Below are positions 4,957 to 43,432 of a stretch of 43,432 nucleotides of DNA, piece after piece. The DNA is taken from positions 1 to 43,432 of IMG/VR virus record IMGVR_UViG_3300032093_014925; one strand, 5' to 3'. The stretch's first letter is position 1. The number at the start of each line of letters is the position of its first letter. The notes beneath the pieces were generated by a model, which saw only the letters and a program-made list of their open reading frames with translations, searched no databases and was not told the origin of the DNA. Source of the DNA: a virus. A program made the position numbers and the translations under genes.

Positions 4957-4980
4957 GGAGGAATCTCCGGGAAGGAAGTG

Positions 4981-7960: not shown

Positions 7961-8012
7961 CTAGCCTTGCAAAAGTCAGACTCTCCTGGGTCCAAAGAGG
8001 CTGCTTGCCTCC

Positions 8013-8020
8013 CATAAATA
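8013..8020 (+). promoter_or_regulatory. CATAAATA element before the virion operon (copy 1)
   Basis: CCCATAAATAGGGC at 8011-8024 is one of three CATAAATA words, all in intergenic gaps and none elsewhere that I could find. No -35 is evident. T4-type late promoters consist of TATAAATA alone, hence a late-promoter reading, which is inference. Confidence 0.5.
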
Positions 8021-8039
8021 GGGCGACCCCACCGCCCTA

Positions 8040-8054
8040 GCCGGCCGCGCCGGC
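8040..8054 (+). promoter_or_regulatory. GC hairpin in the leader of the virion operon
   Basis: GCCGGC-CGC-GCCGGC is a perfect six-pair hairpin 20 bases downstream of CATAAATA copy 1 and 45 bases before the first start codon. It recalls the hairpins of the early leader elements but without the 12-mer. Confidence 0.5.
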
Positions 8055-8098
8055 GCATCCGAAGGAAAGGGGGTGATCCCATTCTCGGGGCACGTGCC

Positions 8099-8200
8099 AT
8101 GAAGAAAAACGCCAAGAAGCCCGCCAAGGGCAAGACGATCCACGACAAGCTCAATGCTGCCTACGAGCAGATGAAGAAGACTCATGGCCCCTGCCGCTGA
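8099..8200 (+). CDS. Small lysine-rich peptide gene at the head of the virion operon
   Basis: A 33-residue ORF (MKKNAKKPAKGKTIHDKLN...) that overlaps the next start by 17 bases. It is strongly basic, with 11 Lys. It lies first after the leader hairpin, and CGGGG stands nine bases before the ATG. Short basic peptides like this occur in phage structural operons but I assign no function. It could also be a leader peptide. Confidence 0.5.
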   Translation: MKKNAKKPAKGKTIHDKLNAAYEQMKKTHGPCR

Positions 8201-8543
8201 CGAGTACGCAGGGCTCGAGGAGTGGGTCTGGTCCCGTCTCCCGGCATCGAAGTGGGTCGCGGGGCGTCGACGCGTTCTTGCGCTGTTACCCCTCGCCCTT
8301 GATCGATGGTCGGATGACATGACCAAGGCCGCCGACAGTGACACGCAGGCCTTCACCTACATGGCGGACTCGCTGCGATCGGACGTCCGCCGGATTTACA
8401 ACGGCCGGCGTTACGGGTCGATCTGGATCATCGTGCTATCCAGCCTCATCGGCGAGCTTGTGAGGCTGCTCGTGCTCTGGTGGCTATCGAGCAACGACCA
8501 CAAGCAACTGTTCCGCACGTGGCGAAGGAGTCCCAATGCCTGA
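8184..8543 (+). CDS. Unknown small single-span membrane protein
   Basis: A 119-residue protein with one clear hydrophobic span at about 79-101 (GSIWIIVLSSLIGELVRLLV, then LWWL). A soluble N-terminal part has EYAGLEEWVWSRLP and MADSLRSDVRRIYNGRRYG, and the C-terminal tail is basic. The topology does not match the usual two- or three-span holins, and a lysis role is not supported. It overlaps both neighbours and belongs to the virion operon. Confidence 0.65.
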   Translation: MAPAADEYAGLEEWVWSRLPASKWVAGRRRVLALLPLALDRWSDDMTKAADSDTQAFTYMADSLRSDVRRIYNGRRYGSIWIIVLSSLIGELVRLLVLWWLSSNDHKQLFRTWRRSPNA

Positions 8544-10206
8544 GTCCTACGGCTACTACGGAGGAGCCAAAGCCGGGGAAACGCTGGTTCAACGGCTGTA
8601 TCGGCAGGCGGGACAGGCCATCGAGGACTCGGCCAACGCTGCGGGCAAATACCTCTCCAAGCGGCTCGACACGCAGCTTTACCCGGACGACATTCAGCAG
8701 TTCCAAGCCGAACCGCCGCCGGAATACGCCCTGTTTCTCGAGGCAACGGGGCAGGCGATGGATATGCCGGTCGTGAAGATCGGTGATCGCGTGGTCACTC
8801 CCGACGAGTACCTCACGATGGCAGCGGCAAGAAGCAACTTGCCGGAATCCGCCATCAACACGGCCAAACAGTCACTCGCAGGGATGCCATTCGACGAGAG
8901 CGACGAAGCCGGCATCGCCCTTCGTGACGCGCTCCTCGGGCAGTTGAGGGACAACCTCCCGGGCCGCAACGCCGAACATGGCTGGGATACTGGGGCAACG
9001 CCCGAACAGGTGGCGGAGTTCGCCAAGGATGGCCCGTTAGAGTCCCGGTATCGTCTTACTTCGGACGGCGAGCAGGGCTATCAGTCGGAACGGGTCTACA
9101 ACCTTTTCACGACGTTTCAGAACGGGGATTTCGCCCCAGTGTGGTCGGACCTCGGATCGAAGGTTCTCGGCGTCCTCGGGGCTCCGTTCGACATGCGGGC
9201 CGGTATTCCAGGTGCAACGCCGGCGCTTGCTGCCAGCCGATTCAACACGCCGACGGGCCGGCTCACGGAGAGCATGTATTGGTGGAAACAGGGAGAACCG
9301 GACGGCACCGCCGCCACCTCAGCCGGCGGAGCGAAGTATCCAAGCATCTCGTCGACGACGCTGGAGGGCGTCACCACGAAGCTCGATTCCACCGACAACT
9401 ACATCCCCTACTACAACCAGCAGCTCCCCGAGCGGTACCTCTACAACCTCGATCTCGAGGCCGCTGATCGCGAGCAGCTCCAGAAGATGCGGGACGACCT
9501 GTTCAGAATCACCCCTCGCTACCCCACCGGTGCCGATCCACGCGAAATGCGGCAGTTGATCCGCGACCTACGGGACTTCGACCAAAAGGCCCGGGGATTC
9601 GCCAACGCGGAATACCCGGAGTTGGTCAGGAACTACTCAATCCCTGTCGAGGCATTTCTGGCGGGGCACGACTGGATGGGGAGAAGTTCCCCGAGCAAAC
9701 CCGCGAAGCCGGTGGAGGCAACCTACCTGTCGCCATTTGGGGAAATGATCGCCAACTACCCCAGAGATGCGGTGGATCTCCAAACGATTCTCACCTTGGG
9801 GGCCGGCGGGCTGAAGGGTAGCCCGTCCCTGCTAGGCGGCCTCATGGATGCGTCGAAGTCCGGAACCAAGGCCGTCGCGCGCCGGGCGGCTCTTTCGGGG
9901 GCAGGAGCTATCCGGCGGACCGTCGACAACACGCTCGACGACTTGGCGCAAGAAATCCCGACGAATACCGCCATGCAGGCCGCCAACCAACCGGGGCCAA
10001 CACAGTCGACTTCGAGCGCGTTCGCGTCGTTCTTCGCGCCGATGGAAACCAGCATCGTCACCGATGAGCAGGGCAACCCCGTGAAGGCAAACGACCCGAA
10101 CTATCGACGGCACCTGGACGACACCTATCAACGAAGGCAGGGCGAGTTGCGGGGTTTACTAGACAGAGGTACAACACTGTACGGCCGTCAATCATTGGCG
10201 AGGTAA
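8536..10206 (+). CDS. Unknown 556-residue virion-operon protein
   Basis: The protein begins MPESYGYYGGAKAGETLVQ and overlaps the previous gene by eight bases. It is mainly charged and helical, with a Gly/Ala-rich segment near residues 418-460 (GAGGLKGSPSLLGGLMDASK) and disordered Ser/Thr/Gln-rich parts after about 480. It has no catalytic signature I recognise. The position just before scaffold and capsid genes, and its similarity in style to the proteins at 26760 and 35817, suggest a head or internal virion protein. That is inference from context. Confidence 0.6.
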   Translation: MPESYGYYGGAKAGETLVQRLYRQAGQAIEDSANAAGKYLSKRLDTQLYPDDIQQFQAEPPPEYALFLEATGQAMDMPVVKIGDRVVTPDEYLTMAAARSNLPESAINTAKQSLAGMPFDESDEAGIALRDALLGQLRDNLPGRNAEHGWDTGATPEQVAEFAKDGPLESRYRLTSDGEQGYQSERVYNLFTTFQNGDFAPVWSDLGSKVLGVLGAPFDMRAGIPGATPALAASRFNTPTGRLTESMYWWKQGEPDGTAATSAGGAKYPSISSTTLEGVTTKLDSTDNYIPYYNQQLPERYLYNLDLEAADREQLQKMRDDLFRITPRYPTGADPREMRQLIRDLRDFDQKARGFANAEYPELVRNYSIPVEAFLAGHDWMGRSSPSKPAKPVEATYLSPFGEMIANYPRDAVDLQTILTLGAGGLKGSPSLLGGLMDASKSGTKAVARRAALSGAGAIRRTVDNTLDDLAQEIPTNTAMQAANQPGPTQSTSSAFASFFAPMETSIVTDEQGNPVKANDPNYRRHLDDTYQRRQGELRGLLDRGTTLYGRQSLAR

Positions 10207-10222
10207 ACCCGGCGAGGCAGCG

Positions 10223-11251
10223 ATGCCCAGCGACGTGTCGGACGAACAGGTTGTCGAGGTTCCCGAGGCCGAAACGGTCGACGCGAGCCCCGACGTTGAG
10301 GCGGCTTCCCCTGCCCCGCCGGCGGAGGAAGCCCCGGTCGAGGCCGTTTCTCCTTGGGATTCCCTCAAGCACCTGCCGGCTTTCGAGGGCAAGCCCGAGG
10401 AGGAAATCGCGTCGAGCGTCTACCAGGCACTCCAACGCGAGCAGGCACTCCAGCACCAGCTCCGGCAGTACCAGTCGATCCTCCCGGTTGCCAGCGACTA
10501 CCTGTCAAACCGGGAACTCTACGAGCGGTGGAAGGCTGGCCAACAAGCCCCCCAACAGGCGACGCAACAGACAGCGGAGGAACAGGGCTGGTGGAACCCG
10601 CCCAAGATCCGCGATGCGTTCAAGCAGTACCTCGTCAAAGACGAGAACGGTCGGGAAGTCATCGCTACCGATGCCCCGTTGGACGCTCGGCATGCCCTGG
10701 CCGAGTACCAAGCGTACCGGGCCGACTTCGCCAAGAAATTCCTCGAAAACCCCGAGGAAACGCTGGCTCCGATGGTGGCGAAGGTCGCCGAACAGCGTGC
10801 CCAAGAGCTGATCCAACAGCAGTTGGCCCGCCGGGACGAGGAGCAATTCGTCGCCCAGGTCGAACACGAGAACGCCGATTGGCTTCGCGACGAAAAAGGG
10901 AATGTCTCTCGAGAGGCAGTTCTCGCCCAAAAATATGTGGAGGACGCCAAGCGGAGCGGCATCCAAGGGGCCAAGCCCCGCTGGGAGTACGCCAAGGCGA
11001 TGGTCGAACGCGAGCTGTTGCTCAACTTCTACCAGCAAGCCACGGCAGGACTTTCCACCCAGCAGCCGACACCGCAACAGCCGACTCCCGGTGAAGACGC
11101 AGCCCGGAAGAACATGGAGTTTCTCCGCCAACAGGCGATGAGAACCGCTCCGAGAAGTTCTCCGGGAACGACCGACCCGCGAGTGCCGCCGCCACGAACT
11201 TCATTCGAGGACAAGTTCCGAACGAAGCTGGCGGAGGAAGGACTGATCTAA
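10223..11251 (+). CDS. Putative scaffolding protein
   Basis: A 342-residue acidic protein immediately before the major capsid gene. Residues 1-45 are an acidic Ala/Pro/Glu region, followed by a long helical, Gln/Glu/Lys-rich body (about 60-290), a Pro/Gln-rich linker, and a short basic-ended C-terminus (SFEDKFRTKLAEEGLI). This is the usual build of podovirus scaffolds, whose C-terminal helix touches the capsid protein while the rest stays extended. Scaffold guides procapsid assembly and is then released or degraded. The call rests on composition and position. Confidence 0.78.
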   Translation: MPSDVSDEQVVEVPEAETVDASPDVEAASPAPPAEEAPVEAVSPWDSLKHLPAFEGKPEEEIASSVYQALQREQALQHQLRQYQSILPVASDYLSNRELYERWKAGQQAPQQATQQTAEEQGWWNPPKIRDAFKQYLVKDENGREVIATDAPLDARHALAEYQAYRADFAKKFLENPEETLAPMVAKVAEQRAQELIQQQLARRDEEQFVAQVEHENADWLRDEKGNVSREAVLAQKYVEDAKRSGIQGAKPRWEYAKAMVERELLLNFYQQATAGLSTQQPTPQQPTPGEDAARKNMEFLRQQAMRTAPRSSPGTTDPRVPPPRTSFEDKFRTKLAEEGLI

Positions 11252-11271
11252 CCCACGAAAGGTGACGCATC

Positions 11272-12405
11272 ATGGCCAGCGTAGGCGACTGGGCGCGAGT
11301 AATCGGGACGACGATCACGGCGCACCTGAGGGAAGAAGAGCTAGCCACCTTCCGCAAGTTCAAGGTGTTCGCGATGCTCGAGCAGTCGGGCAACGTACTC
11401 ATGAACCAATCGGGCAGGGGCTTCGACTGGAATGTGAGATATAGGTCGGCACCCGTTTCGGGTTCGACTGGTGACACACCGCGTACCTTCGCTCGCCAGA
11501 ATCTCTGGAAGCGCGCCGAACTTCCCTACAGGGGCTTCACGACCCAAGATTCGGTTTTCAGGCGCGAGCTCCTGGAGAACCGTGGGCAGCAAGCGCTCGT
11601 CAACGTCGCAGGCCAGATGGCGCAGCGGTTGCAGGAGTCGCTTGAGCAGCACCTCTCGTACCAGGTCTATTCCGATGGGAACGCACCCGGCCGAGAAAAC
11701 GACTTCCACGGCCTCGACTCGTTCCTCGGCTTTGACGGCACCATCAGCGAAGCCGCCGGAGCTGCGGTGGCAACGAAGCGTACTACCGGCAACGCGATCG
11801 ACCGATTCGGCTACCCATCCGACAACTACGCCGGCCTCTCCACGCAACTCGGCTACTACGGCGGTGGGCGCATCGGATCTACCGGAACATGGCCCGAAGC
11901 ACCGGTCGACCCTGAACTAGATTTTTACGCGCCTTGTATCGTGAATTACACGAGCACGGGCTTCAAAAACAAGAACACGTGGGCCGACAACTGCGTGGAA
12001 GCAACCCGCGCGGGAATTCACCACTGTCGCCGCAACGATACTCGCGAAGCGGCCATCGACATGGTGATTCTCGATCGGAAGCTCTACATCCAGTATCTCT
12101 CGACGCTCGACGGCAAAGAGCGCATCCAGGTCAGCAGCAACACCGGCTTGTCGGCGCTGGGCTTCACCGACACTTTCCAGCAGGACGGTGTCTCCGTGAC
12201 GAGCGAGTACGCCTGCCCCGCGAATCGCGGCTACGGCCTCTCGATCGGCAACATGGAACTGCGAAGCCTCGAGAACACGCTGTTCGTTGCCGAGGGACCG
12301 TTCTACGACGAGGAACTTTCCAGCTACAGGTACGCCTGTTCTGTCTTGGCCAACCTCCGCTGTCGTTCGCCGAGAAATTTCTTCCTGCTCGCCCCGATCG
12401 CCTGA
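11272..12405 (+). CDS. Major capsid protein
   Basis: A 377-residue protein directly after the scaffold gene, with GAAAGGTGA as ribosome-binding site. The N-terminal part has a helix-rich arm (AHLREEELATFRKF) and the middle contains LENRGQQALVNVAGQMAQRLQESLEQHL, a long-spine-helix-like region. The C-terminal half is beta-rich. Size, position and layout fit an HK97-fold capsid protein of a podovirus. No protease gene is seen next to it, so maturation by a separate protease is not evident here. Confidence 0.85.
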   Translation: MASVGDWARVIGTTITAHLREEELATFRKFKVFAMLEQSGNVLMNQSGRGFDWNVRYRSAPVSGSTGDTPRTFARQNLWKRAELPYRGFTTQDSVFRRELLENRGQQALVNVAGQMAQRLQESLEQHLSYQVYSDGNAPGRENDFHGLDSFLGFDGTISEAAGAAVATKRTTGNAIDRFGYPSDNYAGLSTQLGYYGGGRIGSTGTWPEAPVDPELDFYAPCIVNYTSTGFKNKNTWADNCVEATRAGIHHCRRNDTREAAIDMVILDRKLYIQYLSTLDGKERIQVSSNTGLSALGFTDTFQQDGVSVTSEYACPANRGYGLSIGNMELRSLENTLFVAEGPFYDEELSSYRYACSVLANLRCRSPRNFFLLAPIA

Positions 12406-12429
12406 CCCCTTTCACTCGGAGTACGTCGC

Positions 12430-13215
12430 ATGTCCAGCCTGTTCTCTGATCCTCCGTTCCCTCGCGGCGCCACGCTCCTCAACGGTGAGGTGATCGAACT
12501 CGACGTGAACGGCAACCCCATCGCGGGAGCCGAAATCGTCGGGCAGGTCAAGGCGTTCCAAGACGTCGTGCCCGGCACCGGACCTGCGGCGATTCGCAAC
12601 AGCAACCGCCTGGTCTACTGCATCGCCGCACGATACGTCGGCACTTCGCTGATCAACGTGCTGGGGGCCGACAGAGGCAAGGTCTATGTCATGAATGACA
12701 TGGGCCCGCTCGCCACGTTCTCGGCCACCGCTACTACGACGGACACCACGAACGGCAAGATGCTCGGGGTGCTCGACGAGTACCTCAACATCGACGTGCG
12801 GCCAAACGACATCGTGTGGCTGGTCGTAAAGGGGCCGGTCACGGTCAACAAGGACAACGCTCTCATTGCCGCCCAAGGCAAGGTGCAGGTGTCGTCCTCC
12901 GGTGGCACGATCCAGACGCACACCTCCACGAATCCGATCGTGGGCGTGACCATCCGCCCTGGCGTCACTACAACCGGCACTTCGGCGGGTATCGGCTCGA
13001 CGTTCACCGTGGGTAACGCCGCCGGCATCACCGTCGGCATGACGGTGTCGGGCACCGGCATCGCTGCCAACACGACCGTCACCGGGATCAGCGGCACCAC
13101 CGTGACCGTGAGCCCGAACACGACGGGAGCCGTCAGCGGCAGCGTGATCTTTGGGGCCGGCTACAACGCCAACGAAACCACGGCGCGGATCAATCTGGAA
13201 TGCGACCAGATTTGA
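12430..13215 (+). CDS. Capsid decoration-like protein with inserted beta module
   Basis: A 261-residue, beta-rich protein right after the capsid gene. Residues 1-175 form the core, containing RLVYCIAARYVGTSLINVLG and EYLNIDVRPNDIVWLVVKGP. Residues about 178-243 are a Thr/Gly/Val-rich module with VGMTVSGTGIAANTTVTGIS, and the core resumes with NANETTARINLECDQI. The module belongs to a family found six times in this window's virion proteins, so it looks like an insertion into a head protein. A role as head decoration or fibre is inference from position. Confidence 0.65.
   Translation: MSSLFSDPPFPRGATLLNGEVIELDVNGNPIAGAEIVGQVKAFQDVVPGTGPAAIRNSNRLVYCIAARYVGTSLINVLGADRGKVYVMNDMGPLATFSATATTTDTTNGKMLGVLDEYLNIDVRPNDIVWLVVKGPVTVNKDNALIAAQGKVQVSSSGGTIQTHTSTNPIVGVTIRPGVTTTGTSAGIGSTFTVGNAAGITVGMTVSGTGIAANTTVTGISGTTVTVSPNTTGAVSGSVIFGAGYNANETTARINLECDQI
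12961..13158 (+). repeat. GTGI beta module, copy 1
   Basis: Encodes VGMTVSGTGIAANTTV followed by ISGTTVTVSPNTTG inside the decoration-like protein. Related at protein level to the copies in the connector, nozzle and long fibre. Confidence 0.6.
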
Positions 13216-13282
13216 CGGCCCGACCTATCCGGAACCTTCGGACAGCCTGTCGGGTCTACCGGCAGGCTGTCGCCATTTGGTC

Positions 13283-13975
13283 ATGGATCAAAGCCGTCTG
13301 TGCGAGCGTTGCGGGATTTCCTTCCCGCTTACTCAAGAGCATTTCGGACTTCGCGAAGGGGCTTTTCGCCCCTACTGCCGCACCTGCGGTAAGGCCGCCA
13401 AAAAAGCAGAACGGCGTCGAGCCAAAGCCAAGCGCCGGGCCGCTCTGGCAAAGGTTGAGGCGTCTGGTGTCGATTTCTGGCTTTCGCAGGTCAAGGCCGG
13501 CGGATCGAACATCCCCCATAGCGCCGAAGTCATCGAGCGCGTCATCGAATACTTCGGCGGCACCGGCGGATTCGCCGCCATGCTCGTCAAGCAGTATTAC
13601 GACTCGCCGCCGGGGGGCAGCGCGAGGAACCGGCTGCTCGAAACGATCTGCCGGCTCGTCTCCAAGAACGTCGATCAAGGGGGCGTCAAACGGCCGCTCT
13701 CGCTCTGGTCCGAAGACGAACTCGAGCAAGAGTTGCAGGCCCGATTCCAACAGGCCGTGCAAGTGATCCAAGGGGAGGTTCACGATGGCAAAAAAGCCCA
13801 AAAGGCATCCCAAGCTCTCACCGCCGCGAATCCCGACGGTGCCCCGCCTGACGCAGTTCGAGCGGGACGAATTGAAGAACCTGCAGAACGAGCTGCGGGA
13901 ACGGAAGATCGAGGCTCTCAAGCTCTATCGCCCGAACCCCAACCAGGAGGAGATTCATCGCTGTCGGGCGAGTGA
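13283..13975 (+). CDS. Zinc-ribbon protein, putative small terminase subunit
   Basis: A 230-residue protein. The start MDQSRLCERCG is chosen because the longer frame to 13151 would overlap the previous gene in a low-complexity stretch. Cys7, Cys10, Cys32 and Cys35 form a CxxC-x21-CxxC zinc ribbon, then a Lys/Arg-rich segment (38-60), then a helical part with EVIERVIEYFGGTGGFAAML. It lies directly before the large terminase gene, where small terminase subunits are expected. They recognise phage DNA and recruit the large subunit. The last 63 codons overlap terL by 191 bases and are low-complexity. The TerS call rests on position and DNA-binding features. Confidence 0.65.
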   Translation: MDQSRLCERCGISFPLTQEHFGLREGAFRPYCRTCGKAAKKAERRRAKAKRRAALAKVEASGVDFWLSQVKAGGSNIPHSAEVIERVIEYFGGTGGFAAMLVKQYYDSPPGGSARNRLLETICRLVSKNVDQGGVKRPLSLWSEDELEQELQARFQQAVQVIQGEVHDGKKAQKASQALTAANPDGAPPDAVRAGRIEEPAERAAGTEDRGSQALSPEPQPGGDSSLSGE

Positions 13976-15479
13976 AATCCTAGTCATCGGCGGAAACCGG
14001 TCGGGAAAATCGCTCTGCACATTCGTGGAGGATGCCCGGGCCGTCACCGGCCAAGACCCTTTCGACAAATACCCAAAGGAGAGCGGGATACTCGTCGTCA
14101 TCGGAAAAGATTGGAAGCACCTAGGGCTCGTGTGTTTTCCCCTTCTGATGAAACCCGGTGCCTTCAAGATCATCAAGGACGCTGGCACCGGCGAATGGCG
14201 AGCGTTCGATCCGGTTCTCGACGCAGCCAGACGGAGCGAAGCCCGTCCCGCCCCGCCGCTTATCGCTCCGCGTTTCGTGAAGAAAATCAGTTGGCTTCTC
14301 AAAAGTGCCGGCTACTGCCAGAAGATTACGCTCACGACTGGCTGGGAGATTCACTTCTTCTCGAGCGAGGGCGAGCCTGTCCAGGGCTACCAGGCTGATC
14401 GCATCCACGTCGACGAAGACTTGAACGACGAGCGTTGGATCCCTGAGTCTCTCGCTCGCATCGTGGATCGCCGCGGCAAGTTCTGCTGGTCTGCGATGCC
14501 ACACTCGACGAACAACGCCCTTCTCGGGATGAAGGAACGCGCCGACGCGAGCGAAGCAGAACTCGGCGACAAATCGTTGATTCGGCAGTTCCGACTACGG
14601 TTTCTCGACAACCCATACCTCGACGCCGACGAGAAGAAGGCGAGCATCGCCCGCTGGGCGGCCAGCGGCGAGGACGTCCTGCGGATGCGAGCGGAGGGCG
14701 ACTTCACCGTGGACTCGGTGCTCGTCTACCCGTCCTTCGACATGAGCATCCACGGCTTTCCGCGGGATCAGCTCCCCGAGGGCCGCGTGCCATCCAACTG
14801 GTGCCGGTACGCCGTGGTGGACCCCGGGCACGCGGTCACGGCCGTACTGTTCGCCGCAGTGCCCCCAACCGATGACTTCTGGCTCGTCTACGACCAGCTC
14901 TACCTCCGGCAGTCCAACGCCGTCGTGTTCGGCGAGCAGTTCGCCAAAAAGGTGGAGGGGCAGCATTTCCACGCCTTTCTGATCGACGCCCACGGCGGTC
15001 GGCTTCGCGACATCGGCTCCGGCCGGTTGCCCGTCGAGCAATACACCGAGCAGCTCATGAAGCGGGGCGTGCGTTCGCAAATCACAGGCAGCTCATTCTT
15101 GGCGGGCTGCGATGACGTGATCGCCCGCTGTGAAAGTACGCGGGCGGCCATGCACATTCGGCCCAGCGGGTCGCCGCAACTGCGGATTCTGGCAGGCGCG
15201 GTTCCCGACCTTGAGCGAGAGATCAAGCGGTACCGAAAGATCGTCAACTACGTCAACGGGACGGCCATCGTCACGGACAAACCCAACACCCGGGGAGAGG
15301 TTCACCTCTGTCAGTGCTTGGAGTATCTGGCCGCCTACCGGCCGGCCTACCACAAGCCGCCGGTGACGCATCACGAAGTCGATCCCTGGTGGGTGAAGTG
15401 GCTCGAAAAACGCCGCCGCACCGCCGGCGAGCATAAGGGATCATTTGTATACTTAGGCCCACAAGGAGCCCATAACTGA
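13785..15479 (+). CDS. terL: Terminase large subunit
   Basis: A 564-residue packaging motor. Walker A is GGNRSGKS (69-76), Walker B RIHVDED (206-212). The C-terminal RNase-H-like nuclease domain starts near YAVVDPG (Asp346) and has a second acidic strand LIDAHGG (Asp401). AGGGGAGG six bases before the ATG fixes the start. The ATPase pumps DNA into the procapsid through the portal and the nuclease cuts the concatemer. It is preceded by the zinc-ribbon gene, overlapped by it, and followed by a one-base overlap with the next gene. Confidence 0.95.
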   Translation: MAKKPKRHPKLSPPRIPTVPRLTQFERDELKNLQNELRERKIEALKLYRPNPNQEEIHRCRASEILVIGGNRSGKSLCTFVEDARAVTGQDPFDKYPKESGILVVIGKDWKHLGLVCFPLLMKPGAFKIIKDAGTGEWRAFDPVLDAARRSEARPAPPLIAPRFVKKISWLLKSAGYCQKITLTTGWEIHFFSSEGEPVQGYQADRIHVDEDLNDERWIPESLARIVDRRGKFCWSAMPHSTNNALLGMKERADASEAELGDKSLIRQFRLRFLDNPYLDADEKKASIARWAASGEDVLRMRAEGDFTVDSVLVYPSFDMSIHGFPRDQLPEGRVPSNWCRYAVVDPGHAVTAVLFAAVPPTDDFWLVYDQLYLRQSNAVVFGEQFAKKVEGQHFHAFLIDAHGGRLRDIGSGRLPVEQYTEQLMKRGVRSQITGSSFLAGCDDVIARCESTRAAMHIRPSGSPQLRILAGAVPDLEREIKRYRKIVNYVNGTAIVTDKPNTRGEVHLCQCLEYLAAYRPAYHKPPVTHHEVDPWWVKWLEKRRRTAGEHKGSFVYLGPQGAHN

Positions 15480-15781
15480 TGACCCAGTTCTCCATGCCCC
15501 GCCCGCAGCCGGGCGATCTGATCCTGTTTTCCACGGACATTCACCACTTCTCCAATCCGTGCATCGGATGGGTCACGGACGAGCGCGGTGAATGCACGGT
15601 GAACCTCTTGGCTTTCACCCCGACCGGCTTCGTGCAGAAGTCGAGCGTCCACCACAAAGACGATCCGGCCCTGCTGGAGAACCCGGGCTGGGAAGCACTG
15701 GGCTGCTGGGACTACGCCCCCCTCACAACGCTCATTCACAAGTTGGCGAACAATGGCCAAGCAAAGCCTGCCGGAAAGTAA
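15479..15781 (+). CDS. Unknown 100-residue protein between terL and portal
   Basis: The ATG overlaps the terL stop (TGATG) and its end overlaps the portal start by 29 bases. The sequence has PGDLILFSTD, a central IGWVTDERGECTVNLLAFTPTG and a WEALGCWDYAP ending. Small proteins with this layout (a short beta barrel with a C-terminal W) are common between terminase and portal in podoviruses. An SH3-like fold is plausible. Function unknown. Confidence 0.75.
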   Translation: MTQFSMPRPQPGDLILFSTDIHHFSNPCIGWVTDERGECTVNLLAFTPTGFVQKSSVHHKDDPALLENPGWEALGCWDYAPLTTLIHKLANNGQAKPAGK

Positions 15782-17738: not shown

Positions 17739-17768
17739 GCGCGGTGGGATGCACTCCCAGGTGCTCCC

Positions 17769-19447: not shown

Positions 19448-19450
19448 GCC

Positions 19451-25388: not shown

Positions 25389-25410
25389 TCCGAAATCCGA
25401 AGGTCGCCCC

Positions 25411-25418
25411 CATAAATA
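25411..25418 (+). promoter_or_regulatory. CATAAATA element (copy 2)
   Basis: CCCATAAATAGGGC again, 14 identical bases with copy 1. It is only 10 bases before the ATG at 25429, so if it is a -10 the transcript would be nearly leaderless. AGGG within the motif may double as ribosome-binding site. Confidence 0.5.
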
Positions 25419-25428
25419 GGGCAAAGCC

Positions 25429-25974
25429 ATGTTCCAATCGTTGATCTCCACCACCGACCCCCTGTCCGGATCGCAGAAGCGGGCTGCTTTCATGCACCCG
25501 CAGGCGTTTCGCGGCATGGCTCACGCCGGAGATCAAAGCCGGGACGCCTACTCCCGGGCGATGGCGGACATGAGCCGTAATGCCCTGGCCGGCGGCATGG
25601 ATCAGTACCGGCAGCAGTATCAGCAGCGGGCCGAAAAGGCCCGGTCCGGCGATCTGCTCGCTCAGCGAGGGGTCGCCCAGGGGCGATACGAACTCGATAG
25701 GAACCGAAGCCAGTTGACCCGCCAACAAGACACGCGTTTACGGGAGGGGCGGCAGGAGATCCAGCAGTACCGAGACTTGGCACGAAAGCGTGCCGAGCAG
25801 CAACTCACCAATGACGTCCTCGGGGCGGTGTTCGGCAGCAACAACGCCGTCAACGCTGCTCCGCTCGTAGGCAACGCCCTCGCCGGTGGAGCACGACCAC
25901 TTGCCGGCCTCACGAGCACATGGGGAAGCGCCGGACGCGGTGGGCTCCTGAGCATGTTGATGGGGGGCATCTGA
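25429..25974 (+). CDS. Unknown Gln/Arg-rich virion-operon protein
   Basis: A 181-residue protein (MFQSLISTTDPLSGSQKRAA...). Residues 35-125 are a Gln/Arg/Ala-rich helix, probably a coiled coil, and the last 40 residues are Gly/Ala-rich and flexible (GNALAGGARPLAGLTSTWG). It overlaps the next gene by one base (TGATG). The next proteins share this style, which suggests a set of internal or ejection proteins. No homologue is recognised. Confidence 0.62.
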   Translation: MFQSLISTTDPLSGSQKRAAFMHPQAFRGMAHAGDQSRDAYSRAMADMSRNALAGGMDQYRQQYQQRAEKARSGDLLAQRGVAQGRYELDRNRSQLTRQQDTRLREGRQEIQQYRDLARKRAEQQLTNDVLGAVFGSNNAVNAAPLVGNALAGGARPLAGLTSTWGSAGRGGLLSMLMGGI

Positions 25975-28400: not shown

Positions 28401-28409
28401 GAGTGACCG

Positions 28410-29153
28410 ATGGCCAAGGGAAACAGACGCCTGCGATCCGTCGTCGAAGGCGCTATGGACGCAACCAAGGACGCGCGTCGCGCGGCTGCTGCGGAGAAGA
28501 TCCGTGCGACCGTTGCTACTACGCCACCGCCGGCTCCTGCACCTGCGCCTGCCGAAGCTCCCCCCGCCAAGCAGCGTCGCCCACGCCGCAAGCCCGCCGA
28601 TCAGGATGTCGAGCCCGACACCAAGTTGGAATCCTCGTCGGAGCAGCGTGTCCCGGACGAAGCACCACAGATGTCGCCGGAGGAGGCGCAGCGATTGCGG
28701 GAGACGATGCTGCAATCGAGCCGGCCCAAGAAGCCCGTCAGCCGGCCAACGAAGCCGGCCGTGACGAAGCAACCTACCTCAACAAGAGGCTTCGCACCGA
28801 TTCGTGGGCCTGGAGCATTGCTGGGCCGATTGCTCAAGGAAACGTACCGACAGGCTCCCAACATCGCGGCCAACGCAGTCGCGATTCCTGCGTTCACGGC
28901 AGCCGGAGCTGGCGGGATCTACCTCGGGACGGCCGGCACGCTGGCCGCAATTCGTGGCATCAACAAACTGCTCACCCCCGAGGAAGAAAAGAAATCCGAG
29001 CCGCTTGCCCTTCCCGCCCCATCCAGCCCACCGCCGGCAGATGACTACCGATCCGGTTTCCAGCGCGCCATTGAACAACGCCGAAAGCCCCGCACCACTG
29101 ACAGCGGGTTCGACGTGATCCGCAGCCTTTCCCGTACTCGAGGACTCACATGA
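28410..29153 (+). CDS. Unknown virion-operon protein with hydrophobic segment
   Basis: A 247-residue protein with AGGAG upstream of the ATG at 28410. The N-terminal 120 residues are basic and Pro/Ala-rich with a run of PAPAPAPAEAPP. Residues about 152-185 form a hydrophobic Ala/Gly/Ile segment (NIAANAVAIPAFTAAGAGG) that could insert in a membrane. The C-terminus is disordered and basic. Ejection proteins that cross the host envelope often combine such parts. The stop overlaps the next start (ATGA). Confidence 0.58.
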   Translation: MAKGNRRLRSVVEGAMDATKDARRAAAAEKIRATVATTPPPAPAPAPAEAPPAKQRRPRRKPADQDVEPDTKLESSSEQRVPDEAPQMSPEEAQRLRETMLQSSRPKKPVSRPTKPAVTKQPTSTRGFAPIRGPGALLGRLLKETYRQAPNIAANAVAIPAFTAAGAGGIYLGTAGTLAAIRGINKLLTPEEEKKSEPLALPAPSSPPPADDYRSGFQRAIEQRRKPRTTDSGFDVIRSLSRTRGLT

Positions 29154-29494
29154 GCGTCCAAATCGAAAGAGTGCTCGGCAGCACCGGTCCCATCACCGTC
29201 ACGAGCGATGCGGCGACTACCAGTCCGGTACCGCTGGGTACGTCAGCCGGCGGAATGCTGCACTGCGTTTCGACGTCCACCGGTTTGCCAATCACCGTCT
29301 CGTGGCACGCCCAACCCGCAGCTGACGCACCGACGTTCAAGCTACACGACTCCACGAACGTGGTTGTCACCAACGTCATCGCCCCGGGCAACTGCTACGA
29401 GATGCCGGCTGCTCTTTTCGGTGCCGCACAGGTGCGAGTAGTGGCAGAAACCGCGGGACAGTCGGCAGTCATTCACTGTTCCCTCAAGGGGTAG
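29150..29494 (+). CDS. Small beta-rich structural protein
   Basis: A 114-residue protein (MSVQIERVLGSTGPITVTSD...) with alternating hydrophobic strands and Thr/Ser/Val-rich loops, no helices evident. The composition fits a small jelly-roll or Ig-like virion protein. It is the first gene of the fibre array and its ATG overlaps the previous stop. Not recognised as a family. Confidence 0.62.
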   Translation: MSVQIERVLGSTGPITVTSDAATTSPVPLGTSAGGMLHCVSTSTGLPITVSWHAQPAADAPTFKLHDSTNVVVTNVIAPGNCYEMPAALFGAAQVRVVAETAGQSAVIHCSLKG

Positions 29495-29497
29495 CCC

Positions 29498-29671
29498 ATG
29501 CCTATCGACCCAAGAACACTCGCTCCCTCTACCGCTACGGCTTCGGGCGCAGCCCCGGTTGTCGTCAGTTTTGATGGAGGTGGCCCGAACACCGTATTCG
29601 ACGCCACCATCGACGGCGGCTCACCATCCGACACTGGACCGATCATTGATGGCGACCAAGGCACTCCGTAA
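29498..29671 (+). CDS. 57-residue DGG-motif protein
   Basis: This short gene lies between the beta-rich protein and the first fibre. It has MPIDPRTLAPSTATASGAAP, then VSFDGGGPNTVFDATIDGG and PSDTGPIIDGDQGTP. The repeated DGG or DG(D/G) units resemble the DGG ends of the neighbouring fibres. The TAA overlaps the next ATG (TAATG), which together with tight packing supports it. Probably a fibre-associated peptide; function unknown. Confidence 0.6.
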   Translation: MPIDPRTLAPSTATASGAAPVVVSFDGGGPNTVFDATIDGGSPSDTGPIIDGDQGTP

Positions 29672-30360
29672 TGGCCATTTATCAGATCCAGATTCGCCGG
29701 GGCACGTCCGCCGAGTGGACGGCTGCCAATCCGATTCTCGCAATCGGCGAGTTCGGCCTGGAAACCGACACGCGCCGACTCAAGATCGGCACGGGCTCGG
29801 CAGTCTGGTCGCAACTTCTCTACCTCGACGCTGGACCGCCGCAGGCAGTGGCGGTCGGTGGCGTCGCCGATCTCACGGGCGCGCAACAGCTCCAGATCAC
29901 AACCGGCACTATCGTCGCCACGCAGGATGGCCGACGTTGGGTGTATTCGGGGGCCGGCTCAAAGACCAGCGAAGCCAGCTACGTCGTGCTTGGCGACATT
30001 ACGCCCGACTGGACGGTGATTTCTGGCAAACCCAGCACGTTTCCCCCACCGGTAGCCACCGCCATAGCACTCGGCGGCGTGAAGATCGGTGCCAACGTGG
30101 CCGTGGCACCGGACGGACTGATCTCAGTAGCAGCCCCCTACGTTCTCCCGGCGGCGACAACCACGAGCCAAGGTGGCGTGCAACTTGCCGACGCCTCTGC
30201 GCTGACGAACGGAACCTCAGGGCGGATCGTGGATGCGGCTCAGCTCAAGGCGGCACTCTCTGCCAAAGCGGACATCTCGAGTCTGGCGACGGTCGCCACG
30301 ACAGGCTCCTACGTTGATCTTCTAAACCAGCCTGCCGAATTCGACGGCGGCAACTTCTGA
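29671..30360 (+). CDS. Tail fibre with Mtd_N-like cap
   Basis: A 229-residue fibre. Residues 1-50 (YQIQIRRGTSAEWTAANPIL, then GEFGLETDTRRLKIGTGSAV) match the cap known from phage fibres and the N-terminal domain of the Bordetella phage major tropism determinant. Downstream are repeats typical of fibre shafts (LGGVKIGANVAVAPDGLIS, TTTSQGGVQLADASALTNGT). It ends EFDGGNF. It is a paralogue, in its cap, of the 800-residue fibre at 33342. Confidence 0.82.
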   Translation: MAIYQIQIRRGTSAEWTAANPILAIGEFGLETDTRRLKIGTGSAVWSQLLYLDAGPPQAVAVGGVADLTGAQQLQITTGTIVATQDGRRWVYSGAGSKTSEASYVVLGDITPDWTVISGKPSTFPPPVATAIALGGVKIGANVAVAPDGLISVAAPYVLPAATTTSQGGVQLADASALTNGTSGRIVDAAQLKAALSAKADISSLATVATTGSYVDLLNQPAEFDGGNF

Positions 30361-30375
30361 AAGGACTGACTCACC

Positions 30376-31638
30376 ATGCCACAGACCATCCGTATCAAGC
30401 GTCGCGCGGCCGGCGGTGCCTCTGGTGCCCCTACATCCCTGGGTGTCGGTGAGCCCGCCTATTCGGAGGTCGACTCGATTCTCTACATCGGGCTGGCGAG
30501 CGGCGCCGTAGTGGCAATGGGCGGCACGGGTGCCTACGCCACGCTCACGAGTATTCAGACCATCAGCGGTGATAAGACCTTCTCGGGCATAACCACTTTT
30601 AGTGGTGCCGTTGCGCTGGGTGCCAATGCAACAGCCACGACTCCTGCCACGAGTGACAACAATGGCAGCGTTGCCACAACTGCGTTCGTCAAGAACCAAG
30701 GCTATATCACCGGCAACCAGACCGTCACGTTCAGCGGCGACGTCACGGGCACCGGTACAACCGCCATCGCCGTCACCATTGGCTCGGGTGTAGTCACGAA
30801 TGCCAAACTGGCAACGATGGCCACGAGCACTATCAAGGGTCGCGCCACCGCCGGCACGGGTGCGCCTGAGGATCTCACGGCTGCCCAAGTAAAGACGATC
30901 CTCGCGATCACAACGACTGACGTGAGCGGCTTCGACACCCAGGTGCGCACCAGCCGACTCGACCAGATGGCGGCCCCCACGGCTGCGGTGTCGATGAACA
31001 GCCAGCGGATCACGAACCTAGCCGCGCCAACCGCCGACAACGACGCCGCCCGCAAGGCCGACGTGGACGCAGCCCGAAACGGCCTCGACGTCAAACTCTC
31101 GTGCCGCGTTGCGACCACGGCGAACATCACGCTATCTGGCCCACAGACGATCGACGGCGTGTCGGTTGTCGCTGGTGACCGCGTCTTGGTGAAGAATCAG
31201 ACCACGACGAGCCAGAACGGCATCTACCTTTGTGCGGCCGGCACATGGACACGGGCTACCGACGCAGACAGTGACGCCGAAGTGAACGCTGGCATGTTCA
31301 CGTTCATCGAGGAAGGGACGACGAACGCAGACACCGGCTGGGTGCTGTCTACCAACCAGCCCATCACAGTCGGAACTACAGGCATCACGTTTACGCAGTT
31401 CTCAGGAACCGGCGGCGGCGTCCCTGCAAACTACGCCGGGCAGAACACGATTACGACCCTCGGCACGGTAACCACCGGGACGTGGAACGCCACGACGATC
31501 GCCGCGGCTTACGGTGGCACCGGACTCACCTCAGTGCTCAACGGCCTGGTGAAAGGCAACGGTTCTGCCTACTCCGCGGCCGTCGCCGGAACGGATTACC
31601 TCACCCCGTCGTCCGACCTGGACGGCGGCACGTTCTAG
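30376..31638 (+). CDS. Tail fibre with common shaft domain
   Basis: A 420-residue fibre. The N-terminus MPQTIRIKRRAAGG is a second type of cap shared with the next gene. The shaft has FSGDVTGTGTTAIAVTIGSG and VSMNSQRITNLAAPTADNDA, and residues about 235-345 contain QTIDGVSVVAGDRVLVKNQT and WVLSTNQPITVGTTGITFTQ. That last segment is a domain I know from fibres of many phages and prophages. It ends DLDGGTF. Likely role: receptor binding. Confidence 0.87.
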   Translation: MPQTIRIKRRAAGGASGAPTSLGVGEPAYSEVDSILYIGLASGAVVAMGGTGAYATLTSIQTISGDKTFSGITTFSGAVALGANATATTPATSDNNGSVATTAFVKNQGYITGNQTVTFSGDVTGTGTTAIAVTIGSGVVTNAKLATMATSTIKGRATAGTGAPEDLTAAQVKTILAITTTDVSGFDTQVRTSRLDQMAAPTAAVSMNSQRITNLAAPTADNDAARKADVDAARNGLDVKLSCRVATTANITLSGPQTIDGVSVVAGDRVLVKNQTTTSQNGIYLCAAGTWTRATDADSDAEVNAGMFTFIEEGTTNADTGWVLSTNQPITVGTTGITFTQFSGTGGGVPANYAGQNTITTLGTVTTGTWNATTIAAAYGGTGLTSVLNGLVKGNGSAYSAAVAGTDYLTPSSDLDGGTF

Positions 31639-31647
31639 GACATAGCC

Positions 31648-32187
31648 ATGCCGCAAACAATTCGGCTTAGACGCTCTACGACCGCATCGGCAGTCCCGAC
31701 TTCCCTGCTAACCGGGGAGATCGCGATCAACGAAGCGGATGGGATCATCTACTATCGCAACTCGTCAGGCGTTGTGACTGAATTCCGAAGCCGCATTGCG
31801 AATGGTGACAAGGGCGACATCACCACTTCGGGCAACGGGGCCACATGGACGATTGATTCGTCGGCGGTTACCTACGACAAATCCGCCCCCTATACGGTTA
31901 CTACTTACTCGAGCCAGACGCTTTCCACCTTGCTTGGCCAGCTCGTTCTCTGCGCTGGCGCTACTGCCGCGACCATCACCGTGCCGACAAATGCCACGAC
32001 CGCCATCGCGGTTGGCAGGCGCATCGACTTCGTCCAGACGGGCGCAGGACAGATCACATTCGCAGCGGCGTCCGGAGTCACTATCCAAGCCACGCCCGGC
32101 CTCAAACTGCGAGCACAGTTTAGCGCCTGCTCTCTTATCAAGACCGCCACTGACACCTGGGTACTTATCGGCGACCTCTCGGCGTAA
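31648..32187 (+). CDS. Short tail-fibre-like protein
   Basis: A 179-residue protein whose N-terminus MPQTIRLRRSTTASAVPTSL matches the cap of the previous gene (MPQTIRIKRR... PTSLGVGE versus PTSLLTGE). The remainder is beta-rich (TVTTYSSQTLSTLLGQLVLC, ITVPTNATTAIAVGRRIDFV, IQATPGLKLRAQFSACSLI) and resembles a fibre-tip beta sandwich. It may be a minor fibre or a fibre-bound adaptor. Confidence 0.72.
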   Translation: MPQTIRLRRSTTASAVPTSLLTGEIAINEADGIIYYRNSSGVVTEFRSRIANGDKGDITTSGNGATWTIDSSAVTYDKSAPYTVTTYSSQTLSTLLGQLVLCAGATAATITVPTNATTAIAVGRRIDFVQTGAGQITFAAASGVTIQATPGLKLRAQFSACSLIKTATDTWVLIGDLSA

Positions 32188-32192
32188 CCACC

Positions 32193-33326
32193 ATGCTGCA
32201 TTTCCCACCTATCGGCACATTCGCCGCCGGCTACAACGCCCCAAGCGGCCCTGCATTTAATGGCGGCAACATCGCATACGGCAGCCTGTACGAAGCAGCG
32301 CAAGCGATGGCGAGCTACTCCGCTTCGTCAGCGCCCACGGCAGGCGGCACGCTCACGATCAATGGCGTATCACTGGGGTCTTATGACTTCTGCGTAAAGC
32401 AAGGCGCCCAGACCATCTCGGCGTTCACAGCGACGGACTGGTTTACCGGCACGCAGGACACTCGCAGTGCATTCGTGGTGGTCAATGGGGCGCTCACGAT
32501 CAACACGGGCATTACGGTCATCCCAACCGTCCGTAAGTTGTTTGTGGTTGTCTACTGCACGGGCAACCTTACCGTTAACGGCACCCTTTCCATGAGCCTA
32601 AGGGGCGCTAACCACAGCGGCACGGGAAACAGCGGAGGAGCCACTACGGCAGGAGCTATTCGTATCGCAACCGGCACATATAGCGGCATCAGCAATCCGA
32701 CAATTCTTGCCGCCGGAGCAAGTGGTGGAGCCGCAACTCCCACCAACTTCGCTGGAAATCCCGGTCAGTCCGCCGGAGCAAGCATCAGAACCGGAGGCGG
32801 CGGTGGCGGCGCGTTAAAAGACAGCAATAGCGCTAATCCTACGTGGGGACCAGGAGCCGGTGCAGCAGGCACCTGCTTCAGCGGCGGGCCCGGCGGAGGT
32901 GCATTTGCTGATTTTTTTCAGAACGGGACCGGGCCAGCCGGTCCCGGTGGAAGCAACGGAGGCGCTGGCGGTTCGGGGGGCGGTGGCGGAGAGGGTGGCG
33001 TGGGGAACCCGAGTCCAGCCCGTCTCGGTGGATCTGCTGACACCGGAACAGGCGGCGTCCTGGTGGTGATTTCTGGAACCACCGTTTCGGGAAGTGGCTC
33101 CTTGGTTGCCAATGGGGGCAGCCAGACAAGCAGCAGCGCTTCCCCAGCCCCAAACTCTGGTGTTTGTGGCGGCGCGAGTGGAGGTGGGCTCGTGTGCCTG
33201 ATGGGACGTTCGATAGGTGGACCAACGCTATCGGCCGCAGGAGGAACCGCTATTGGAACGGGTTTCTCTCCCGTCAACGGCGGTGCGGGCGGCGCGGGCT
33301 TCGCTTCCCAACTCATTATTCCGTAA
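32193..33326 (+). CDS. Glycine-rich adhesin-like fibre tip
   Basis: A 377-residue protein. Residues 1-135 are a beta-rich attachment region. From about 137 to the end, Gly blocks alternate with short variable loops: GGGGGG at 201-206, GGPGGG at 231-236, GPAGPGGSNGGAGGSGGGGG around 247-266, and GGAGGAG at 363-369. This matches the polyglycine-II sandwich of T-even gp38-type adhesins, whose loops bind host receptors. GGVLVVISGTTVSGSGSLVA is the strand repeat typical of this group. Relationship to gp38 is by pattern only. Confidence 0.72.
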   Translation: MLHFPPIGTFAAGYNAPSGPAFNGGNIAYGSLYEAAQAMASYSASSAPTAGGTLTINGVSLGSYDFCVKQGAQTISAFTATDWFTGTQDTRSAFVVVNGALTINTGITVIPTVRKLFVVVYCTGNLTVNGTLSMSLRGANHSGTGNSGGATTAGAIRIATGTYSGISNPTILAAGASGGAATPTNFAGNPGQSAGASIRTGGGGGGALKDSNSANPTWGPGAGAAGTCFSGGPGGGAFADFFQNGTGPAGPGGSNGGAGGSGGGGGEGGVGNPSPARLGGSADTGTGGVLVVISGTTVSGSGSLVANGGSQTSSSASPAPNSGVCGGASGGGLVCLMGRSIGGPTLSAAGGTAIGTGFSPVNGGAGGAGFASQLIIP

Positions 33327-33341
33327 TCGCGGAGTGCAGGC

Positions 33342-35744
33342 ATGCCCATCTACAGAATTCTTCTTCGCCGAGGCACGGCCGCTCAGTGGGCGTCAGTCAA
33401 CCCGACGCTCGCGGAAGGCGAACTCGCGATTGAGCAAGACACGCAGAAGCTCAAGGCTGGCAACGGAACCGCGGTGTGGAATGCGCTGCCCTACCTGCCT
33501 CCATCTGCACACCAGTCAACCCATGCGCTTGGCGGCACGGATCCTCTAACGCCATCAGACATCGGCACCCTGTCCGCTGCACAAATTGAGTCGATGCTTG
33601 ACGCTCCTGGCTCCCGCCTTATCTACGTTGATTGCAACCGCACAGACTCCTACGCCGAAGACGGCACCCTCTATCGTCCCTATAAGACCATGCGATCTGC
33701 GCTGGCCTCGGTACCGCCTGCGTCGTCTCGCTCCGAATTCAATGATACGAGCAGGCGCTTCTACTGCTTTTGTGTCGCTCCCGGCTTCTATGACGAAGAG
33801 TCCGGCGGTGCGCTGAACATTCCCTATCGGCCGCATGTGGTATTCGATCTAAGCGGTGGCGCCACGCTTAAAGGCAACTATGTCCTCACGCGCCCCTCGG
33901 GCCTTCTGTCGGGCGCGTTCAACATCGCTGCGGCACTTACCAGCGGCAGCAACACCGTCAGCGTGTCCACGACCGACGCCAACTACGGTCGCCTAAAGGT
34001 TGGCTCTGTATTGGCCGGCACTGGCATTACCGCGGTAGCACCCAACAGCACTACCGTGATTACCGCGATCAATGGAGCCACGCTCACGCTTAGCAACAAT
34101 GCAACGGCTACCAATGCTAGTGCGACTATCTCAGTCGACACCGACGAACTGGGCAACGCCGTCTTCGCCATGATCGGCCCAAACAACCGCTCTGGCTACA
34201 ACAACGCGCGGCACAGCCACGTGGGGATCCTCGGCACTCTCACCATCACCCAGAGCGGTTCGACGACCACTGACGCAAGCGGCTTCACCCAAGTGCATCT
34301 GACGCGATGCGGCGTGCGCGGGGTCATCGAATTCACGGGATCGCGTTCTGACCAGAACCAACTGTTCTGCTGGAGCCATTCCGGCTTCGACACGCTCAAG
34401 GCAACAGGCAATCCGGCCGTCACCTTCTATGCCGCCGATACACAGAACTCGCAGGCTGGCAACGCCCTGGGGAACATCATCGGCAACGTCTTCCTCCAAA
34501 GCATCAACAATTGCTACTGGCACGCATGGGCATCGGTATTCACCACTGCTTCGATGGGCATTTCGCCCGGCGACGGCACCGTAATGCCTCCCTACAACGA
34601 ACTTGCTGCCACCTCGTTCACTCGCACGAGCAACGTAGCAACCGTCACCTTGGCACAGAATCACGGCCAAAGCCGCGACCTGCTCGCCGATGGCTACTGG
34701 CGAGAGCAGTACGTCCTGATCAACGGAGTGTCCGAGAACACCTCGTTCAATACGCCGGCCTTCGGAGCGAAGGTGGTCGCCTTCCCAGCGGCCAATCAGG
34801 TGTCGTACGAAAACACAGGCCCGGACGTTTCCACGCCGGTAACCGCCGCAGCCGCAAAGTGGATTAAAGGCACGTTTTTCGGAAATGCGAACGCGAGTGG
34901 CTTCATACAGGCCGGCCCATTTTTCTTGGCGGCCAATGAGGGCGCCATTCATACGCACCCCGGCTGGCGTACCAACACGCAACCTGGGACGGGCACGGCG
35001 TACACAATTGGCAGGTCGTCGGCAGTGACGTTTCGGTATCCGGCTATCGGCTGGACGGCCAACGCCCTGTATGTCCGCAACCGGCTGCTCCTCCCCGGCA
35101 ATGGCTATCAGTACCGCAACGTGACCGCCACCGGCGTTGGACGCAGTGGTGCAAGCCAGCCTACATGGCCCACCACGATCGGCGGCACGGTAGTGGATGG
35201 CGCTGTGACGTGGCAGTGCGAGCAATTGACTTTCCCGCTGGCATTCAATCTCGGGTTCACCGGCAGCATCACTACAGGAAGCAACCAGGTTGTGGTGGCG
35301 CTCGGCAGTGTGCTGGCCGCTAATTTCCAAGTCGGCCACACCATTACCGGCACTGGCATTCCGGCCAACACAACGATCACTGGTATCAGCAGCAGCACAC
35401 TCACGATCAGCAGCAATGCGACTGCTACCAACGCCGCCGCCACCCTGACGGTGTCGGGAACGCCAGCTTTTATCGGCTACAACGTGCAGCAGACGCTCGA
35501 ACTGCTCCACGACAGCAAGAACATCTACCACAACCAGATTGACAGCGGGGTGGCGGGAGCCACCACCGTGCAGGCCGCCATCAAGACGCTCAAGACGCAG
35601 GTGGATGGCAAACCGTCACTTGCGACCGTCCCAGTATCAGCCACCTCGGCCGGTACAGCGGGCACGATCGCCTACGACGCCAACTTCGTCTACGTCTGCA
35701 CCGCCCCAAACACCTGGGCACGAGCGGCACTTGCGGCATGGTGA
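33342..35744 (+). CDS. Long tail fibre with Mtd_N-like cap and beta-helix
   Basis: An 800-residue fibre or tailspike. The cap (YRILLRRGTAAQWASVNPTL, GELAIEQDTQKLKAGNG) matches that at 29671. Residues about 108-115 (DGTLYRPYKT) start a right-handed beta-helix, as in pectate-lyase-like spikes that often carry depolymerase activity. Two beta modules lie at about 197-267 and 635-705. The end (SATSAGTAGTIAYDANFVYV, then APNTWARAALAAW) is a common fibre tip. No catalytic triad can be placed by eye. Confidence 0.82.
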   Translation: MPIYRILLRRGTAAQWASVNPTLAEGELAIEQDTQKLKAGNGTAVWNALPYLPPSAHQSTHALGGTDPLTPSDIGTLSAAQIESMLDAPGSRLIYVDCNRTDSYAEDGTLYRPYKTMRSALASVPPASSRSEFNDTSRRFYCFCVAPGFYDEESGGALNIPYRPHVVFDLSGGATLKGNYVLTRPSGLLSGAFNIAAALTSGSNTVSVSTTDANYGRLKVGSVLAGTGITAVAPNSTTVITAINGATLTLSNNATATNASATISVDTDELGNAVFAMIGPNNRSGYNNARHSHVGILGTLTITQSGSTTTDASGFTQVHLTRCGVRGVIEFTGSRSDQNQLFCWSHSGFDTLKATGNPAVTFYAADTQNSQAGNALGNIIGNVFLQSINNCYWHAWASVFTTASMGISPGDGTVMPPYNELAATSFTRTSNVATVTLAQNHGQSRDLLADGYWREQYVLINGVSENTSFNTPAFGAKVVAFPAANQVSYENTGPDVSTPVTAAAAKWIKGTFFGNANASGFIQAGPFFLAANEGAIHTHPGWRTNTQPGTGTAYTIGRSSAVTFRYPAIGWTANALYVRNRLLLPGNGYQYRNVTATGVGRSGASQPTWPTTIGGTVVDGAVTWQCEQLTFPLAFNLGFTGSITTGSNQVVVALGSVLAANFQVGHTITGTGIPANTTITGISSSTLTISSNATATNAAATLTVSGTPAFIGYNVQQTLELLHDSKNIYHNQIDSGVAGATTVQAAIKTLKTQVDGKPSLATVPVSATSAGTAGTIAYDANFVYVCTAPNTWARAALAAW
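33933..34143 (+). repeat. GTGI beta module, copy 5
   Basis: Encodes TSGSNTVSVSTTDANYG and LAGTGITAVAPNSTTVITAI, ending NATATNASATISV, in the long fibre. Confidence 0.65.
35247..35457 (+). repeat. GTGI beta module, copy 6
   Basis: Encodes TTGSNQVVVALGSVLAANF and ITGTGIPANTTITGISSSTL, ending NATATNAAATLTV. Closest to copy 5 in the same protein. Confidence 0.65.
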
Positions 35745-35794
35745 TGCCAAGAAACTTCATGGCACGTGCATGGCCGAAATCTGACGAACGCGGC

Positions 35795-35802
35795 CATAAA
35801 TA
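35795..35802 (+). promoter_or_regulatory. CATAAATA element (copy 3)
   Basis: GGCCATAAATAAGTAGGAGA lies 14 bases before the ATG at 35817 and overlaps the region of the ribosome-binding site AGGAGA. Flanks differ from copies 1 and 2. Confidence 0.45.

Positions 35803-40894: not shown

Positions 40895-43432
<2,538 letters not shown>

Follow-up and report, generated by a model that had tools for sequence, protein, structure and literature searches.

A rare word before three blocks of an uncultivated phage's virion operon as the probable -10 part of late promoters served by a phage-encoded ECF-like sigma factor

Introduction

How the virion genes are switched on in a phage family without a cultured member is the question raised by an 8-base word, CATAAATA, that recurs along a single operon of viral DNA. 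The window (the whole stretch of 43,432 bases analysed here) is a fragment of a virus record. Its left block consists of minus-strand genes, among them those for an ATPase and a clamp-like protein, that face a plus-strand virion operon running in the order 33-aa ORF, 119-aa ORF, gene in scaffold position, major head protein, large terminase, portal, tail and fibre genes, and genes for proteins of 409 and 1159 aa (Table 1). In this map, the large terminase is assigned by a weak Pfam match together with gene order, and the scaffold and ejection proteins by order only. The GYF_2/PH-domain protein encoded ahead of the operon was possibly acquired from a host.

Table 1. Predicted promoters, genes and other features of the window
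Feature	Coordinates	Strand	Description	Relatives
S1, predicted promoter	7990..8024	+	CCAAAG at 7990-7995, 16 nt, ATAAATA in the 8012-8020 region (CATAAATA at 8013-8020); start of the virion operon; word ~80 nt before the first ATG; -35 part weak	L061, L074, L075, G014
S2, predicted promoter	25390..25422	+	CCGAAA-N16-ATAAATA; word at 25411-25418, 10 nt before the ATG at 25429	G002, L069, G003, G041, G045
S3, predicted promoter	35773..35802	+	CCGAAA-N16-ATAAATA; word at 35795-35802, 14 nt before the ATG at 35817	
33-aa basic, lysine-rich ORF	8098..8202	+	First gene after S1; near-perfect ribosome-binding site	
119-aa holin-like ORF	8184..8543	+	One transmembrane stretch by eye	Orthologues after S1
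First gene after S2	25429..25974	+		Orthologues
First gene after S3, 409 aa	35817..37046	+	Precedes the 1159-aa putative ejection protein	Orthologues in G003/G014; by position in others
Clamp-like protein (DNA polymerase processivity factor)	4351..5025	-	PF02767 at 2e-5, just below the cut-off; PHROG 947 at 3e-9	
Nuclease-like gene	6210..6704		Precedes the GYF_2/PH-domain gene	
GYF_2/PH-domain protein	7103..7885		GYF_2 and bacterial PH domains	
Hairpin	7912..7961		Between the PH-domain gene and S1; -28.6 kcal/mol, z -3.5, no T tail	T-tailed terminator-like hairpins in its place
57-aa ORF	29498..29671		Stop overlaps the next start (TAATG)	
Large helicase-like ORF	40895..43432	-	Runs off the right end	

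Results

The window contains CATAAATA exactly three times, always on the plus strand, with copies at 8013, 25411 and 35795. An earlier note on this DNA had estimated that the word should occur less than once by chance, and this holds: the mean was 0.07 in 100 dinucleotide shuffles, and three copies were reached in 0/100. Its description of the word as AT-only was wrong, the first base being C. Among all 8-mers of the window that passed a rarity filter (expected at most 0.2 times, seen at least three times), CATAAATA has the lowest expectation (0.09), and it therefore survives the objection that the word was chosen afterwards. The longer stretch that the first two copies were said to share is also there, these copies having exactly CCCATAAATAGGGC in common. 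Only 570 of the ~33,100 bases of the late region (7886-41000) are intergenic (1.7%), and all three copies fall among them (P ~5e-6 for three random words). The gaps that hold copies 1, 2 and 3 measure 212, 40 and 72 nt and are the widest in the virion operon. What looks like a fourth wide gap is occupied by the 57-aa ORF, which is absent from ORF lists of at least 60 aa. With this ORF accepted, the counts confirm that the three copies lie on the coding strand in the three widest intergenic gaps of the operon, and the proposed division of the operon into three units is supported.

Relatives of the window are numerous in IMG/VR (68 portal loci). No close isolated phage was found, the best portal match being a partial one to a Microcystis phage at 23%; no isolated-phage relative of the 1159-aa protein was found, and no host genome contigs matched. 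Scans with the genes at 25429, 35817 and 37316 alone returned no loci, and orthologues were therefore located by tblastn in contigs brought in via portal, capsid and sigma. These contigs include G003, a close relative with 78% portal identity to the window, and its near-identical sister G014.

At S1, ATAAATA precedes the same small ORF in L061, L074 and G014, and ATAAGTA precedes it in L075, the flanks being otherwise diverged. In more distant relatives the forms are ATAAGTA, ATAAACA, ATATACA, ATATACC, ATAAGCA, ATAAATC and ATAAAAG, always preceded by CC. In relatives, the S1 word is often immediately preceded by a terminator-like hairpin that has a T run; in many genomes a near-perfect GGAGGTGATC ribosome-binding site follows the word, and a small basic ORF with a strong ribosome-binding site is kept after S1 in most relatives. 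At S2, G002 and L069 have the word 10 nt ahead of their orthologue of gene 25429; the form in G003, whose orthologue has 45% protein identity, is AATAAATA, and that in G041 and G045 is ATAAACA. For S3, where the gene was defined by position only, as the last ORF of at least 300 aa before the orthologue of the 1159-aa protein, CCATA[AT] occurs within 50 nt upstream in 10/12 genomes, the window itself included, versus 12/304 other late genes (Fisher P=1.7e-11). The called start in G043 is too early, and its likely start, ATGGCAGAG, has CCATAAGCA before it, which brings the count to 11/12. The earlier note had proposed a search of related phages for the word before the same genes, and such a search thus recovers the word or a drifted form (CCATAWnnn) between diverged flanks. 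These comparisons of sequence support the view that CATAAATA acts like a promoter word for the virion operon that is kept before the same genes in relatives.

Two other candidates were set aside. Copies of CCATAAGCA inside the orthologue of gene 15479 in relatives look like conserved coding sequence rather than promoters, and a hairpin reading of CCCATAAATAGGG is out, as the GGG arm is missing in G002 and L069, where the word is kept. It was also observed that in G037, G041, G045 and G047 only a few bases separate the S1 word from the end of a preceding single-stranded-DNA-binding-protein-like gene.

The forms of the word agree within genomes. ATAAATA stands at S1, S2 and S3 of G000, and ATAAATAGG is shared by S1 and S3 in the G014/G003 pair (CATAAATA at S1 and S3 of G014 and at S3 of G003). 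S1 and S3 likewise both carry ATAAATCAGG in G037 and ATAT forms in G004 and in G005. Words at S1 and S3 that are alike within a genome and unlike between genomes would result if a single co-evolving protein were their reader.

A second element lies upstream of the word at a fixed spacing. When 17 S2 and S3 sites were aligned on ATA, GAAA ended exactly 16 nt ahead of the word in eight of them (8/17), as compared with two occurrences at all 22 other offsets together; there is also a preference for G at the position two bases ahead of the CCGAAA hexamer (13/17). In the window, CCGAAATC is common to S2 and S3, in one and the same register; a run of at least 8 between random stretches has P ~7e-4. 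The bipartite form occurs at exactly three sites in the window, the next best having 3 mismatches and lying within a gene. The upstream element is weak at S1 of the window, and GAAA is not evident at S1 of distant relatives. It should be noted that the sites in relatives share ancestry and are not independent, such that these site counts overstate certainty; the comparison of S2 with S3 within G000 and within G003 is the cleaner evidence. No sigma-70 consensus site was found near the words.

A candidate reader of the words is encoded by the relatives. Sigma region 2 (PF04542) was detected above the cut-off in G004 and G005, and a profile built from the sigmas of G004, G005 and G020 recovered a homologue in G003 (E=7e-47). 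A wider scan yielded 26 sigma-bearing contigs, and in every long genome retrieved from it the gene has the same neighbourhood. Among the long relatives that reach across this segment, nearly all encode the protein, with homologues in synteny in G003, G004, G005, G020 and ~20 others. In G019 (47 kb, probably incomplete), the words are present and sigma was not found. In G003, G004 and G020 the gene sits further out than the orthologue of the window's leftmost gene, by 7-9 kb, which indicates that the window ends before it; the relatives' profile, run in all six frames, found no homologue inside the window. A phage sigma beyond the left edge, where the earlier note had proposed to look for one of the gp55 type, is thus borne out in relatives by synteny and is absent from the window's own contig.

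The relatives' protein, at ~170 aa, carries region 2 and a C-terminal region 4; the G003-type gene occupies L138:10001-10507. The latter matches PF08281 in G003 at 2e-4, below Pfam's own cut-off, and the C-terminal HTH is conserved in 21 sequences. Among PDB sequences, the protein matches an ECF sigma best (E=0.0015). In the predicted structure (pLDDT 79, pTM 0.50), the leading matches are sigma factors, none of which reaches E=0.001. Individual scores are modest, and taken together the sequences and the model fit the ECF form, that is, regions 2 and 4 and no others in ~170-200 aa. A search for a T7-like single-subunit RNA polymerase gave no PF00940 match in 33 records, the control being silent too.

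Most of G034-G049, G020 and G003 have a fourth word, located upstream of the sigma gene at a distance of ~2.4-2.5 kb. It takes the form of CCATAAACAG, CCATAAATAG and similar words, and of CCAATAAATACGGG in G003, and is followed after 30-50 nt by a small ORF that is on the strand of the sigma gene. This word may be the sigma cluster's own promoter, and it hints at a positive loop; in several genomes it overlaps the Pro-stop end of an ORF, and the evidence for such a loop is weaker for it.

Discussion

Relatives of the window carry the same start signals together with a sigma of their own, and the signals are therefore probably read by a phage protein and not by an ordinary host one. It is quite likely that each of the three words is the -10 part of a bipartite phage late promoter read by host RNA polymerase with a phage-encoded ECF-like sigma, which for the window we infer from its relatives. 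The promoter form would be ~GYCCGAAA-N16-ATAAATA with a C before the word; region 2 of the sigma would read the CATAAATA part, and region 4 the GAAA part. Early genes would be transcribed by the host holoenzyme, after which the phage sigma would be made and would bring the host's core RNA polymerase to S1, S2 and S3, presumably late in infection. S1 would start the whole virion operon, and S2 and S3 would re-start transcription inside it, boosting the second block (unknown proteins and fibres) and the third (ejection proteins). Transcripts would probably start a few bases downstream of the words. With +1 placed ~6 nt downstream of the word, just a few bases would precede the ATG in the S2 mRNA, which would be nearly leaderless, and the S3 ribosome-binding site would be at the very 5' end. 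ECF promoters have a GAA-containing -35 element and a spacing near 16, and the sites described here resemble them. The relatives' protein in turn resembles bacterial ECF sigmas such as Rhodobacter RpoE (2q1z) and E. coli sigma-E (1or7) in its length of ~170-200 aa and in having regions 2 and 4 only; it differs in being phage-encoded, in its low sequence identity to them and in the -10 word of its putative promoters.

Alternatively, the words could be read by a host sigma, either an RpoH-like heat-shock factor or a host ECF, and the phage sigma could serve other genes. The -10 element of RpoH promoters is CCCCATNT, which is similar to the word, and the -35 element is CTTGAAA. Several sites have CCCCAT or CCCAT before the A/T stretch, recalling the RpoH -10, and the reading of the words by the phage sigma is itself a prediction. 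However, the RpoH -35 element is matched only in its GAAA part, and the words drift between relatives yet agree within a genome. Moreover, nearly all long relatives keep a syntenic sigma gene that a host factor would not need, and a host reader is therefore considered unlikely.

The earlier note had instead read the words as late promoters of the T4 type, which have a single -10 element, a gp55-like reader and the sliding clamp as activator. T4 late promoters lack a -35 element and are read by a split sigma, gp55 with gp33 (PMC2988020). With the T4 system (TATAAATA; gp55/gp33/gp45; PMC2988020), the window shares an A/T-rich 8-bp word before late genes that resembles TATAAATA, a clamp-like gene and, by way of the relatives' gene, a probable phage-encoded reader of the sigma family; the -35 part is, moreover, weak at S1. 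Unlike in T4, a GAAA element is present at a fixed spacing and regions 2 and 4 are joined in one sigma protein of the relatives, and the word begins with C, not with T as in TATAAATA. T4-like promoters without a -35 element are thus not supported, given GAAA at N16 and region 4 in the relatives' sigma, and this region 4 also argues against a sigma of the gp55 type. We regard the T4-type reading as very unlikely.

A role at the level of RNA, in which the word would be an A/U-rich translation enhancer or a processing site before selected genes, appears highly improbable. The S2 and S3 words do lie 10-16 nt before an ATG and near the ribosome-binding site, but at S1 the distance to the first ATG is ~80 nt and the word in relatives is often right behind a terminator. 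Further, only 3 of >30 genes have the word, and an upstream element at fixed spacing falls outside any such RNA role; a translation enhancer would leave both S1 and this element unexplained. Finally, the copies number only three, but that they are a chance repeat of a rare word is a negligible prospect given the expectation of 0.07, and is refuted by the conservation of the word at the same places in diverged phages.

To return to bipartite promoters read with a phage ECF-like sigma, the nearest described system is that of phage 7-11; a literature search on phage-encoded ECF sigmas and late promoters, with most subscription journals outside its reach, yielded nothing closer. This phiEco32-like phage has eight late promoters of the form GTAAtg-(16)-aCTA, and the C-terminus of its sigma, gp47, matches region 4 (PMC8948821). 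In common with phage 7-11, the sites described here have two elements at ~16 nt (S1 being weaker), several copies along the virion genes, each before virion genes and on the coding strand, and early genes on the opposite strand; a phage sigma with region 4 is encoded by the relatives. The two differ in sequence (CCGAAA-16-ATAAATA here versus GTAAtg-16-aCTA there), no sequence relation was seen between the phages, and the promoters of 7-11 were tested experimentally whereas those reported here are predicted. Phage phiEco32 likewise has a phage sigma, gp36, and a conserved word before late genes; unlike the sites described here, its promoters have a single element (tAATGTAtA), and gp36 is without region 4 (PMC8948821). 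The window thus most likely has late promoters of the phage 7-11 type, ECF-like and dependent on a phage sigma, with a new specificity and in an uncultivated family.

Conclusions

By way of synteny in relatives, an 8-base word from one contig could be carried to a proposed mechanism. The result is a testable transcription programme, with a probable switch factor, predicted start points and words, for a phage family that has no cultured member. A broader picture of this uncultivated family, which we put forward only tentatively, is that it holds a single lineage of ECF-like sigmas, each serving three or four promoters at fixed map positions, in which sigma (~40-60% identity) and words have drifted together, the S2 mRNA is nearly leaderless and the fourth copy closes a positive loop. 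With sigma and promoters open to pairing in >10 diverged genomes, this family may be usable as a natural specificity code for ECF-like sigmas. If the broader picture holds, these phages would offer a natural series in which to read how residues of sigma regions 2 and 4 set promoter specificity.
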